Shown here piece by piece: positions 57,501 through 63,029 of a stretch of 64,000 nt of DNA. This DNA is from Candidatus Phycosocius bacilliformis (GTDB lineage Bacteria > Pseudomonadota > Alphaproteobacteria > Caulobacterales > Aquidulcibacteraceae): positions 62,001 to 126,000 of the forward strand of contig NZ_BFBR01000006.1 in assembly GCF_003112735.1 (NCBI RefSeq). The letters are read 5' to 3'. The notes below the pieces were generated by a model that had not been told where the DNA came from, did not search any database, and saw only the letters and a program-made list of their open reading frames with translations. Each line of letters starts with the position of its first letter. Positions within the stretch are counted from its first letter, which is position 1. Position numbers and translations under genes: made by a program.

Positions 57501-57515
57501 GAACAGAGTTAGAAC
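57501..57515. promoter_or_regulatory. LexA operator 1 upstream of lexA (GAAC-N7-GAAC)
   Basis: GAAC at 57501-57504 and 57512-57515 with exactly seven bases between; on the other strand this reads GTTC-N7-GTTC, the alphaproteobacterial SOS box. Confidence 0.85.
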
Positions 57516-57526
57516 ATCTTAACTTT

Positions 57527-57541
57527 GTTCGTGGATCGTTC
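57527..57541. promoter_or_regulatory. LexA operator 2 upstream of lexA (GTTC-N7-GTTC)
   Basis: GTTC at 57527-57530 and 57538-57541, seven bases between. It lies 11 bp after operator 1 in the opposite orientation and about 55 bp before the lexA start. Confidence 0.88.
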
Positions 57542-57596: not shown

Positions 57597-58307
57597 ATGC
57601 TGACGTCCAAACAGCGGGAGCTTTTGCTCTTCATTCATGAACGTTTGAAGGAAACCGGCGTGTCACCTTCATTTGATGAAATGAAGGATGCGCTGGATCT
57701 GGCTTCTAAGTCCGGCATCCACCGTCTGATCACAGCGTTGGAAGAACGTGGGTTTCTCCGGCGGCTTGCCCATCGCGCACGTGCGCTTGAGGTTTTGAAA
57801 CTGCCAGACAGCGCCACCACGGCAGCCCCACCCAAAGGTCGTCAGCCCTTCTTGCCAACAGTAGTCGGCACCAGGCCAGCTCCCGTTCCAGCCCAAGTTT
57901 CAGCCCCTGCCCCGGCACCAGCGACTCCGGCCAATGACATCGCTGTTTTGGGCCGGATTGCCGCGGGTGTGCCGATTGAAGCAATCCAACATGAAGTAGA
58001 TCGGATTGCCGCACCTGATCACCTCGACCCTGCCTTGCATTTTGCCCTTGAAGTCAAAGGTGATTCAATGATCGATGCGGGCATTTTGGAAGGTGATTTT
58101 GTAATCATTCGTCGCACAGATGATGCCCAATCGGGCGACATCGTTGTGGCGCTGGTGGATGAGGAAGAGGCAACTTTGAAGCGTTTGCGTCGGCGCGGCC
58201 AGTCTATCGCCTTGGAAGCAGCCAACCCGCGTTACGAAACGCGCATTTTCGGACCCGATCGGGTTAAGGTTCAAGGTGTTCTGGCAGCACTTTATCGGCG
58301 ATATTAG
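57597..58307 (+). CDS. lexA: SOS repressor LexA
   Basis: Represses the SOS regulon and cleaves itself when RecA is activated. HTH in the first 60 residues ([26 protein letters not shown], key: [10 protein letters not shown]), cleavage site A123-G124 in RIAAGVP, catalytic S157 (GDSMIDAGI) and K195 (EEATLKRL). The linker of about residues 70-115 is long and Ala/Pro-rich, giving 236 residues. Two LexA boxes upstream show autoregulation. ATG 57597. Confidence 0.97.
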
Positions 58308-58419: not shown

Positions 58420-61400
58420 CTAAAACTCGGTGACGAGATCAACCCCTGATGCGCTCTTCAAGGCACGACGGGCCGCGACATCGATCGGAAATCGCCCTGG
58501 GGCCTGGATTTCCACTTCCCGACCATCAGGCAGTTCCAGCACGATGCGCAATTCGCCAAAGCTGGAAGCCGTGGCCCCGCGCAGCGTTTCGGTGACTTTT
58601 GCCAATTCATCGACCCCAGCCCCGCGCGCCAGAAAAACTTTGATGCCTGCGCAGCCTGAAATGTCGGCCTGATCAAGCAGTTCAATCTTTTCAGCAGACA
58701 ATTTCAAATCACCATCGCGCAAGCGTGCCTTGGCCCGGAAACTGATCGACGTGCCCGGCTCGAGATGATCGCGCGCATCGTGCAGCGTCTCTGGCATGAC
58801 CATAACTTCAAACTCGCCGGTGGGATCGCTCAATGTCACCCAAGCGAACTTGCCGCCATCGCGTGCCGGACGTTCCTTGCGCGCCCGCACCACCCCAGCC
58901 ATGCGGAAAATGGCATCAGAGCCCTGCATGCGGGCAGCAATCTCAGAGAAAAACACCGTCTGGCGACGACGCAGCGCATCGGTCAAATCATCCAATGGAT
59001 GCCCTGACAAGAACAGGCCCAAAGCGGCAAACTCATTGTCCAAGCGTTCTTGAGCCGACCATGGCTTGACCTGCGGCAAGGGCGCGCGCGGGGGAGGCGC
59101 AGCATCGCCAAACAGGCTTGTCTGTGCGCTTTGCCGATCCGCAGCTGCAGCATTGGCATGGGCTACAAGCTGATCAGCAGCGGCAAAAACCAATGCCCGA
59201 TTGGGCTCAATGGAATCAAACGCCCCGGCCTTGGCCAATGTCTCCCATGTGCGTCGCCCAAGAATGCGCGGATCGACCCGCTCAGCCAAATCGTGCAGCG
59301 ACGAAAACCTGCCCCCCGTGTTGCGGATGTCCACCAATTGGGCCATCGCTGCCACACCCACCGATTTGATGCCCCCCAATGCATAGCGAATGGCATCATC
59401 CTGCACAGAAAAGTCAGCCTCTGAATAGTTAAGATCAGGCGATAAAACCTTGATCTTCATGGATTTTGCCTCTTGCATAAAGGCGCCGAGCTTGTCGGTG
59501 TCATCTATATCGAGAGACATAGAGGCAGCCATGAACTCAACTGGATGATTGGCCTTCAGATAGGCAGTCTGGTACGCGATCACCGCATAGGCGGCAGCAT
59601 GGGATTTGTTGAAGCCATAGCCCGCAAATTCGCTCACCAATTCGAAGATACGGTCCGCAAGCTCACCGTCCACCCCGCGCGCAACTGCGCCCGATACAAA
59701 TCGATCCTTTTGCTTGGCCATTTCCTCCGGCTTTTTCTTGCCCATGGCACGGCGCAAAAGGTCGGCCTCGCCCAATGAATAGCCTGACAGGATCTGGGCG
59801 ATCTGCATCACCTGTTCCTGATAAATGATGACGCCTTGGGTTTCCTTCAAAACAGAAACGAGACTTTCATGAAGATAATCAGCCTCTTTGCGGCCAAACT
59901 TCACATCGCAATACGTCTCAATATTCTTCATCGGGCCAGGACGATAGAGCGAAATCAAGGCAATGATGTCATCAAGACTATCGGCGCGCATTTTGCGCAG
60001 CGTATCGCGCATGCCCTGACTTTCCAGTTGGAACACGCCCATGGTCTTGCCCGATGCCAAAAGCTCATAGGTTTTTCGGTCATCAAAGGGCAAGGTGTCC
60101 AGATCGACGTCAATGCCGCGCTGTTTGAGAAAATCCAACGCGCGCTGAATCACTGTCAGGGTTTTCAGTCCCAGAAAGTCGAATTTCACCAAGCCGGCCG
60201 GTTCAACCCATTTCATGTTGAATTGGGTAGCCGGTAGATTTGAGCGGGGGTCCTTATACAGGGGAACCAGCTCATGCAGAGGCCGGTCACCAATCACCAC
60301 GCCAGCAGCATGGGTTGACGCATTGCGATAGAGGCCTTCGAGCTCAATCGCGGCATCGAGCAAGGTTTTCACGTCTGCATCACGCGCGCGCTCTTCCTGC
60401 AAACGCGGCTCATCCTTGATCGCTTGCGCCAAAGTAACCGGGGCGGCAGGATTGTTTGGCACCATTTTCGCCAGGCGATCTACCTGGGTGTAGGACATAT
60501 CCAGCACCCGGCCGACATCGCGCAAAGCCGCCCGTGCCTGCAGGGTCCCAAAGGTAATGATCTGGGCGACCCGATCTGCACCGTATTTTTTTTGAACATA
60601 ATCGATGACTTGGTCGCGCTTTTCCTGGCAGAAGTCGATGTCGAAGTCCGGCATTGACACCCGTTCAGGGTTGAGGAAGCGCTCAAATAAGAGTCCAAAA
60701 GCCAGCGGATCTAGGTCGGTAATCGTCAACGCATAAGCAACCAGCGAACCCGCACCCGACCCCCGCCCAGGCCCGACCGGCACCTTATGTTCTTTCGACC
60801 ATTTGATGAAATCAGCCACGATCAGGAAGTAGCCAGCAAAGCCCATCCGGTTGATGACTTGGATTTCATGCTCGAGGCGTTGTTCATAAATCGACCGGTC
60901 GACAACAGGTGGCCGCTTGGCCAGACGGGCCTCAAGCCCGGCACGGGCTTGGCTGGCCAATTCTTCCGGCTCATCGCGCCCCTCAGCCGTCGTATAGCGG
61001 GGCAAAATGGGCGCGCGGGTTCGCGGCCGGACGGCACAGCGACGGGCGATATCCACACTATTTGCCAAGGCTTCAGGCAGATCGGCAAACAATGCCACCA
61101 TCTCTTCCTCGCTGCGGAAGCAATGATGCGGGGAAACCCGCTCGCGCTTGTCATCGGCGACACGCGTGGCCTGCCCGATACACATAAGAATGTCCTGAGC
61201 ACGATGTCGTTCAGGGCTTTCAAATCGCACATCATTGGTGGCCACCAAGGGCAGTGCGCGATCATAGGCCAGATCAATCAAGGCGGGCTCAACTTGCGCT
61301 TCATCGGCCATGCCGTGACGCTGGAGCTCGACATAAAGCCGATTGGGGAAAGCCTTGCCGAGCTTGTCGAGCAGAAGTTCGGCTTCCTGGCGCAAATTGG

Positions 61401-62004
61401 CCAATAATGCGCGCGACAACAGCCCCTCACGCCCCCCGGTCAGGCAGATCACACCCGCATTGTGCGCCAGCACTTTCTCCAGTGGAACATGGGGAAGACT
61501 GCCAGCGGGCACATCCAGAAAAGCCAAACTCGACAATGCCATCAGATTGGCCCAGCCGGTCTCATTCTGGGCAATAAGCGCAAGCGCGCCATCAGGCCCC
61601 GGCATAGCACCGGGCTTGGGTGCCAAAAAGGCGACAGGCACCGTCAGCCCCATAATGGGCTGAATACCTTTTTCGGCGAGTGCCTCAGAAAACTCGAGCG
61701 CACCAAACAGATTGGGATCAGAAATACCAACAGCGACACAACCGGCCTTGGCAGCAACCCCGGCCAGCTTTTTGACCGTCATCGCCCCATCGAGCAAGGA
61801 ATAGGCTGACCGCACCCGCAGATGAATGAAACCGGGCCCAGCCACCACCCTTGCTGCCCCACCAAGCCCATCACTCGACCCACCACTCGACCCATCACTG
61901 GGCCCACCATTCGGACGAGACCGCGCACCCTCGCCGACAGATCCAGCATGGCTGCCCGCCCCGCCATCCGCCACTGCCTGCCCAGACTGCGCCTCGTTGC
62001 TCAT
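58420..62004 (-). CDS. dnaE: DNA polymerase III alpha subunit
   Basis: Replicative polymerase. From ATG 62004 (GTG 62016 possible) the protein has 1194 residues. FIHLRVRSAYSLLDGAMTVKKL starts the PHP domain; the palm carries MPDFDIDF with catalytic Asp residues; later VGPGRGSGAGSLVAYAL and helix-hairpin and OB domains. The N-terminus has about 55 extra residues rich in Gly and Ser, from a 12-bp repeat (positions 61868-61904). It lies behind the 28-residue SOS-linked ORF. Confidence 0.96.
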   Translation of the reverse strand: MSNEAQSGQAVADGGAGSHAGSVGEGARSRPNGGPSDGSSGGSSDGLGGAARVVAGPGFIHLRVRSAYSLLDGAMTVKKLAGVAAKAGCVAVGISDPNLFGALEFSEALAEKGIQPIMGLTVPVAFLAPKPGAMPGPDGALALIAQNETGWANLMALSSLAFLDVPAGSLPHVPLEKVLAHNAGVICLTGGREGLLSRALLANLRQEAELLLDKLGKAFPNRLYVELQRHGMADEAQVEPALIDLAYDRALPLVATNDVRFESPERHRAQDILMCIGQATRVADDKRERVSPHHCFRSEEEMVALFADLPEALANSVDIARRCAVRPRTRAPILPRYTTAEGRDEPEELASQARAGLEARLAKRPPVVDRSIYEQRLEHEIQVINRMGFAGYFLIVADFIKWSKEHKVPVGPGRGSGAGSLVAYALTITDLDPLAFGLLFERFLNPERVSMPDFDIDFCQEKRDQVIDYVQKKYGADRVAQIITFGTLQARAALRDVGRVLDMSYTQVDRLAKMVPNNPAAPVTLAQAIKDEPRLQEERARDADVKTLLDAAIELEGLYRNASTHAAGVVIGDRPLHELVPLYKDPRSNLPATQFNMKWVEPAGLVKFDFLGLKTLTVIQRALDFLKQRGIDVDLDTLPFDDRKTYELLASGKTMGVFQLESQGMRDTLRKMRADSLDDIIALISLYRPGPMKNIETYCDVKFGRKEADYLHESLVSVLKETQGVIIYQEQVMQIAQILSGYSLGEADLLRRAMGKKKPEEMAKQKDRFVSGAVARGVDGELADRIFELVSEFAGYGFNKSHAAAYAVIAYQTAYLKANHPVEFMAASMSLDIDDTDKLGAFMQEAKSMKIKVLSPDLNYSEADFSVQDDAIRYALGGIKSVGVAAMAQLVDIRNTGGRFSSLHDLAERVDPRILGRRTWETLAKAGAFDSIEPNRALVFAAADQLVAHANAAAADRQSAQTSLFGDAAPPPRAPLPQVKPWSAQERLDNEFAALGLFLSGHPLDDLTDALRRRQTVFFSEIAARMQGSDAIFRMAGVVRARKERPARDGGKFAWVTLSDPTGEFEVMVMPETLHDARDHLEPGTSISFRAKARLRDGDLKLSAEKIELLDQADISGCAGIKVFLARGAGVDELAKVTETLRGATASSFGELRIVLELPDGREVEIQAPGRFPIDVAARRALKSASGVDLVTEF
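61868..61904 (-). repeat. 12-bp repeat in the 5' end of dnaE
   Basis: Three imperfect 12-bp copies encode SDGSSGGSSDGLGG in the N-terminal extension of DnaE: AGTGATGGGTCG, AGTGGTGGGTCG, AGTGATGGGCTT. Copy number may vary between strains. Confidence 0.7.
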
Positions 62005-62145
62005 GCCATCACCCACATCCGCCTGCTACATCCTGCCCGCCATCGCTGCACCCGCACGCAAGACAAGCTGAATCGACACAAACGGATGTGACAGGACTTC
62101 GCGGCGTCTGTCAGCCCCTGCCGACAGAAAACACCCCATTCATCC

Positions 62146-62232
62146 TCACCCGATGACAGCGCCCCAACCCCAAGCCATCAGGGTGAAAGCGAGAATGGCA
62201 GCAAACGCAGCAGCATCTTGAAGTTGGGCCAT
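62146..62232 (-). CDS. 28-residue SOS-linked membrane peptide (SidA-like candidate)
   Basis: ATG 62232 with GGGAGAGG five bases upstream opens MAQLQDAAAFAAILAFTLMA and continues WGWGAVIG to a TGA at 62146. One predicted TM helix covers about residues 8-26. A LexA box (GTTC-N7-GTTC) lies at 62246-62260, 13 bp upstream. Caulobacter SidA is an SOS-induced 29-residue inner-membrane division inhibitor acting on FtsW/FtsN; size, topology and regulation agree, but I could not compare sequences. It is 141 bp upstream of dnaE on the same strand. Confidence 0.62.
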   Translation of the reverse strand: MAQLQDAAAFAAILAFTLMAWGWGAVIG

Positions 62233-62245
62233 GATCCTCTCCCAT

Positions 62246-62260
62246 GTTCTTGCTTCGTTC
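62246..62260. promoter_or_regulatory. LexA box upstream of the 28-residue ORF
   Basis: GTTC at 62246-62249 and 62257-62260 with exactly seven bases between. It overlaps the region where the promoter of the small ORF and possibly dnaE must lie. A further GTTC occurs at 62273. Confidence 0.75.
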
Positions 62261-62336
62261 TATTCTTGTTTTGTTCTCATGGCAAGGGCTCTTTTGCAGC
62301 TCCCACCGCACATGCGGACCTGCTTCAATCTAGGCG

Positions 62337-63029
62337 TCAATCTTCAACAAGACGGCCGGATTCGATACGGAAAACCCGGTCCATTTGGCGGGCCAGGTCG
62401 AGATTATGGGTGGCGACCAAGGCCGCGCTGCCCTCGTCTCGTGTTGCCTTGCGGAAGATGTCGAACACAAAGCTGGAGGTGGCCGGGTCGAGATTGCCGG
62501 TCGGTTCATCGGCAATCAAGAGTGCGGGCTTATTGGCTAAGGCGCGAGCGATCGCCACTCGTTGCTGCTCCCCGCCCGATAATTGGCCAGGCTGATGGTG
62601 CTGGCGATCTTGCAGACCCATGGATGACAAGAGCGCACCCGCCCGCGCACGCGCAGCCTCAGTAGCCACCCCGCCGATCCATTGTGGCAGGGCCACATTA
62701 TCCAGTGCGCTAAACTCGGGCAGCAGATGGTGGAACTGATAGACAAAGCCCAATGCCTGCCGCCGTAAAGCTGTGCGGGCAGCGTCTGGAAGGCTGGTAG
62801 CATCCTGTCCAGTCAGCTCTACTGTGCCACCTTGGACAGCCTCAAGAAGGCCCGCAGCATGCAAGAGCGAGGATTTGCCAGAGCCCGATGGGCCAATCAG
62901 AGCCACGATCTCGCCCGGATTGACCACCAGATCGACACCTTTGAGAACTTCAAGCTCCCCAGCTCGGGTGTGATAGGCCCGGCGTAATTGGGTTAGACGC
63001 AAGACGGGTGGACGGACCTCATCACTCAT
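62337..63029 (-). CDS. lolD: Lipoprotein-releasing ABC ATPase LolD
   Basis: ATPase of the LolCDE complex that releases outer-membrane lipoproteins from the inner membrane. Walker A GPSGSGKSS, signature LSGGEQQR and Walker B LLIADEPTGNLD are all clear; VYQFHHLLPEFSALDNVALP is typical of LolD. 230 residues. It overlaps lolC/E by 8 bp. Confidence 0.94.
   Translation of the reverse strand: MSDEVRPPVLRLTQLRRAYHTRAGELEVLKGVDLVVNPGEIVALIGPSGSGKSSLLHAAGLLEAVQGGTVELTGQDATSLPDAARTALRRQALGFVYQFHHLLPEFSALDNVALPQWIGGVATEAARARAGALLSSMGLQDRQHHQPGQLSGGEQQRVAIARALANKPALLIADEPTGNLDPATSSFVFDIFRKATRDEGSAALVATHNLDLARQMDRVFRIESGRLVED

Follow-up and report, generated by a model that had tools for sequence, protein, structure and literature searches.

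What is encoded by the short open reading frame (ORF) that lies between lolD and dnaE in Candidatus Phycosocius bacilliformis, and could its product be the SOS checkpoint of cell division in this organism? To our knowledge, the SOS division inhibitor has not been identified in most alphaproteobacteria. In Caulobacter, the main SOS-induced inhibitor is SidA, a LexA-controlled inner membrane peptide of 29 amino acids which binds FtsW and FtsN and acts on FtsW/FtsI/FtsN to block division while sparing FtsZ (PMC4211646). A sequence-only reading of the 64-kb stretch of DNA analyzed here (the window) had proposed a SidA relative at this locus from size, topology, and control. The features of the locus are as follows.

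62337..63029, minus strand: lolD, the upstream neighbor (TIGR02211, E 2.4e-74, below the strict cut-off of the model)
62280..62285, minus strand: predicted −35-like element TTGCCA, 17 nt ahead of the −10-like element
62262..62276, minus strand: LexA box 1, GAACAAAACAAGAAT, inside the promoter spacer (conserved in the genus, one base off in L001)
62257..62262, minus strand: putative −10-like element TAGAAC, placed by spacing, overlapping both boxes
62246..62260, minus strand: LexA box 2, GAACGAAGCAAGAAC, a perfect GAAC-N7-GAAC (motif scan, order-wide conservation)
62236..62243, minus strand: ribosome-binding site GGGAGAGG (from the sequence)
62146..62232, minus strand: 28-codon ORF for a putative SidA-type peptide with a single transmembrane (TM) helix, MAQLQDAAAFAAILAFTLMAWGWGAVIG (ORF reading, codon conservation, homology)
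58420..62016, minus strand: dnaE (DNA polymerase III alpha), 129 nt downstream of the ORF (NF004226 above cut-off)
57597..58307, plus strand: lexA, the presumed repressor (profile match, own boxes)

The gene order on the minus strand is therefore lolD (63029–62337), promoter region, ORF (62232–62146), and dnaE (62016–58420). The length of the ORF, its ribosome site, and its placement are exactly as had been read, and the perfect GTTC-N7-GTTC box (GAAC-N7-GAAC on the minus strand) stands exactly 13 nt ahead of the ATG. The ORF was found in all nine genomes of the genus, including that of the window, with 93–100% identity. Each of the eight relatives differs from the window at 9–14 of 84 bases, at third codon positions throughout save a single first-position change common to two of them. 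As many as 18 of the 28 codons vary among the nine genomes, only two of them with a change of amino acid, and 0–2 of 28 residues are changed per relative (6–9 expected by chance). Conservation in relatives had been named beforehand as a check, and the codons are under strong purifying selection within the genus. By this record the ORF is a real gene. Searches of Pfam and PHROGs with the peptide gave no useful match.

Box 1, which was absent from the sequence-only reading, is a second box between the −35-like and −10-like elements. Together with the −35 region it is largely kept in the genus, amid intergenic DNA that drifts. Box 1 has GAAT at its end, at the start of the −10-like element, a possible reason why this box is imperfect. 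A scan for the sigma-70 consensus reported nothing at the position of the TTGCCA/TAGAAC promoter. The box motif occurs three times in the window, where 1.5 occurrences are expected, and at least three were obtained in 19 of 100 shuffles; the box taken alone is weak evidence, but its conservation makes it compelling. Of the 48 loci collected, 47 carry GAAC-N7-GAA[CT] in the 130 nt ahead of the start, compared with 0.67 expected from shuffles, and many of these loci share the order cTTG[ac]c, 6–8 nt, GAACAAAAnnnGAATA, and then a second GAAC-N7-GAAC.

In the whole genome the motif occurs 43 times. Since these matches include those ahead of recA, ssb/uvrA (divergent), ruvC, and lexA, the sequence evidence indicates that the motif is the LexA box at work in this organism. 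It also precedes a gene of the YifB family and one, upstream of a second DnaE, that resembles ImuA weakly, with a score below cut-off. The lexA gene, some 4 kb away from the SidA-like gene, is probably autoregulated, considering that two LexA boxes (57501–57515 and 57527–57541) stand between gltX and lexA.

To compare the peptide with SidA, we used the SidA equivalog model NF033228 (cut-off 35 bits), position-specific scoring matrices (PSSMs), and hhalign. NF033228 gave no match to the window peptide at E ≤ 10 and none to the same-genus sequences at E ≤ 0.01, and among 200 sampled genomes of the order its matches above cut-off were confined to Caulobacteraceae (f3). In Caulobacter vibrioides DSM 9893 (G126), the ORF upstream of dnaE scored 70–72 bits; this SidA match (G126:C11:325784-325870) is directly before dnaE (325724–324924). 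The locus numbers of sidA (CCNA_02004; PMC10769358) and dnaE (CC1926; PMC1839093) are compatible with this adjacency, which is shown directly by the sequence.

With a PSSM built from Caulobacteraceae, f4, and f5, none of 5000 shuffles and none of 225 TM windows scored as high as the window peptide, a result with a mild leak in that its register came from the joint alignment; hhalign on independent alignments avoids this leak, and the residue register was the same in both comparisons. With f4 alone, the peptide again scored above 5000 of 5000 shuffles. The matrix from Caulobacteraceae SidA alone was marginal, the score being reached by 210 of 5000 shuffles and six of 225 TM windows.

For hhalign, four alignments were made: Caulobacteraceae SidA (A1), the window group (A2), the intermediate family f4 (A3), and other alphaproteobacteria (A4). 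Probabilities were 77–90% for A1 versus A2, 89–93% for A2 versus A3, 93–94% for A1 versus A3, and 94–95% for A1 versus A4, and none of 65 unrelated TM segments of FtsW/RodA reached any of these four scores. A2 versus A4 was weak, with two of 65 nulls reaching the score in one direction. Taken as a group, A4 is related to A1 and A3, although this may not hold for each of its members. The alignment to SidA that had been called for thus stood in the profile comparison, above the TM nulls, was marginal in the single-sequence PSSM test, and did not stand in the curated model, which misses the peptide. The link between the window peptide and SidA is good, and strongest through intermediates. A relation formerly drawn from size, topology, and control now finds support in position, profile comparison, promoter layout, and codon conservation.

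Because the curated model does not recognize it, we describe the window peptide as a strongly diverged relative of SidA that falls beyond the curated family. As it fails the NF033228 test, it should not be filed under that entry; that it works like SidA seems the better-supported statement.

The likeness to SidA covers length (28 vs. 29 amino acids), a single TM helix, a position directly upstream of dnaE, a LexA-box promoter with the same box-in-spacer layout, and an aligned motif, [RQK][ED]..A[LF].....F..M. The top 19-residue Kyte–Doolittle mean is 1.88, compared with 2.08 for C. vibrioides SidA. The differences are also clear. The basic N-terminus is missing: Caulobacter SidA carries two Arg close to this end, and the window peptide contains neither Arg nor Lys, so that topology is not assignable by charge; and the C-terminal half has WGWG where SidA has CxVAxLVA.

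We consider it likely, from the gene, its promoter, and its relatives, that this ORF is the local sidA, encoding a LexA-repressed one-helix inner membrane peptide that halts septal wall synthesis via FtsW/FtsN. By analogy with Caulobacter SidA, SOS-induced arrest of the septal wall through FtsW/FtsN is its most likely molecular function. With LexA bound to the two overlapping boxes, the TTGCCA-N17-TAGAAC promoter would be occluded over its spacer, −10-like element, and start region. RecA filaments would lead to cleavage of LexA, upon which the promoter would open and the peptide be made. It would then insert in the inner membrane and keep the FtsW/FtsI/FtsN septal-wall complex inactive, delaying division with FtsZ undisturbed. 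PF01098 proteins are present in the genome, and one of them is probably FtsW because it adjoins a murD-like ORF.

Other small membrane proteins offer partial parallels. DidA of Caulobacter, compared here by description, is likewise a small single-TM division inhibitor which is induced by DNA damage and acts on the FtsW/I/N complex (PMC4211646), but it has 71 amino acids, is SOS-independent (DriD), and binds FtsN in two-hybrid assays. YneA, SosA, and ChiZ are single-TM, SOS-induced inhibitors of septal wall synthesis, which a 2026 study modeled on FtsW TM7 (PMC13396833); they are larger, carry a LysM domain in YneA and ChiZ, and belong to other phyla, with no known homology.

The peptide might also be an SOS membrane peptide of the same descent with another target, for instance a depolarizing or toxic one like DinQ of Escherichia coli. 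LexA-controlled single-TM peptides with different roles are known, DinQ being a single-TM peptide under SOS regulation (PMC3567139), and the C-terminal half and N-terminal charge are unlike those of SidA. However, DinQ is a toxic inner membrane peptide with antisense RNA control and no known relation to the window peptide, and profile homology and position are shared with SidA. In an analysis not aimed at such features, no antisense RNA or toxin arrangement came to light. We therefore give this alternative little weight.

The position of the gene raises the further question of whether the replicase itself is SOS-induced. No intrinsic terminator was found in the 129 nt between the ORF and dnaE. 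In four sequences from three genera of the same family (L034, L036, L047, L050), the promoter with its LexA box is kept approximately 60–85 nt before dnaE without the peptide ORF, a layout that suggests LexA-controlled dnaE. Considering the short gap, the lack of a terminator, and a promoter that outlives the ORF before dnaE, read-through from the peptide gene is plausible, and the transcript probably continues into dnaE.

The same facts would also fit an ORF that has no part in division and acts as a leader peptide or translated 5' region, serving to bring dnaE under LexA or to couple its translation; the promoter can evidently serve dnaE alone. Yet it is the amino acid sequence and not the codons that is conserved. 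In L011, a member of the same family, the peptide is kept behind a thiolase gene (L011:1356-1600), away from dnaE, together with a LexA promoter and ribosome-binding site of its own, and the member found before dnaE in Caulobacter has been studied by experiment as a division inhibitor (PMC4211646). A mere leader is accordingly improbable, and we prefer the reading of the ORF as a local sidA.

An imperfect palindrome (CTGTCAGCCCCTGCCGACAG, 62108–62127) between the peptide gene and dnaE is largely kept in the genus. It is possibly a second operator or an RNA element of dnaE.

To investigate the distribution of the gene, we read the DNA ahead of dnaE across a sample of the window's order, to which Caulobacter also belongs. 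ORFs of about 28–32 codons, each with a ribosome site and a single hydrophobic helix, precede dnaE in the sampled genera of f4 and f5, in Caulobacteraceae (exception: L108, genus g16), and in part of the window's family, f1. No such ORF was found at dnaE in the sampled f2 genera or in f1 genera g5, g8, g9, g10, g11, and g14. The search between lolD and dnaE of related genomes that had been suggested thus turned up the ORF before dnaE in most of the Caulobacterales sampled.

The survey was extended to 80 genomes from the rest of the class, in which ORFs were picked by anatomy: upstream of dnaE, a LexA box and then a TM ORF of 24–42 codons with its ribosome site. This arrangement was detected in 18 of the 80 genomes (12 of 61 families), compared with 0.03 expected from shuffles, and the antisense strand of the same genomes gave no matches. 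Examples of the peptides are MTNFLKDFLALSSVVGVLWAVTVWSAIVGSALT and MMDWVKDAFGLATLVGLWGAFAAWGEIISTVVGG. A box with a single-TM ORF of about 31–38 amino acids was seen before dnaE in other alphaproteobacterial families at L180, L182, L187, L190, L194, L200, L201, L202, L204, L214, L216, L217, L219, L221, L248, and L251. A chance ORF next to a chance box, for which only the non-significant box count in the window speaks, is already refuted by purifying selection in the genus, order-wide recurrence, and this class-wide excess with an empty antisense strand, and has practically no probability left.

The SidA group is much wider than the curated model and is mostly missed by current family models. 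In the literature searched, the coverage of which was incomplete, no earlier report of SidA relatives outside Caulobacteraceae turned up. We lean, by a narrow margin, toward the view that SidA, rather than being peculiar to Caulobacter, is one remaining lineage of an ancient family of alphaproteobacterial SOS peptides of about 30 residues coupled to dnaE, in which one LexA promoter would raise the replicase and stop division together, and which has stayed unannotated because its sequence drifts fast. The rule of position and promoter (a LexA box in the spacer, a TM ORF of about 30 codons, then dnaE) points to candidates that sequence search misses and opens the checkpoint to direct tests in many species.

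Elsewhere in the window's genome, near-consensus LexA boxes, GAACAAAACAGGAAC (L140, around 1500) and GAACAAAATAAGAAC (L164, around 1500), are located beside small ORFs of 72 and 117 amino acids, which are possible further SOS genes.
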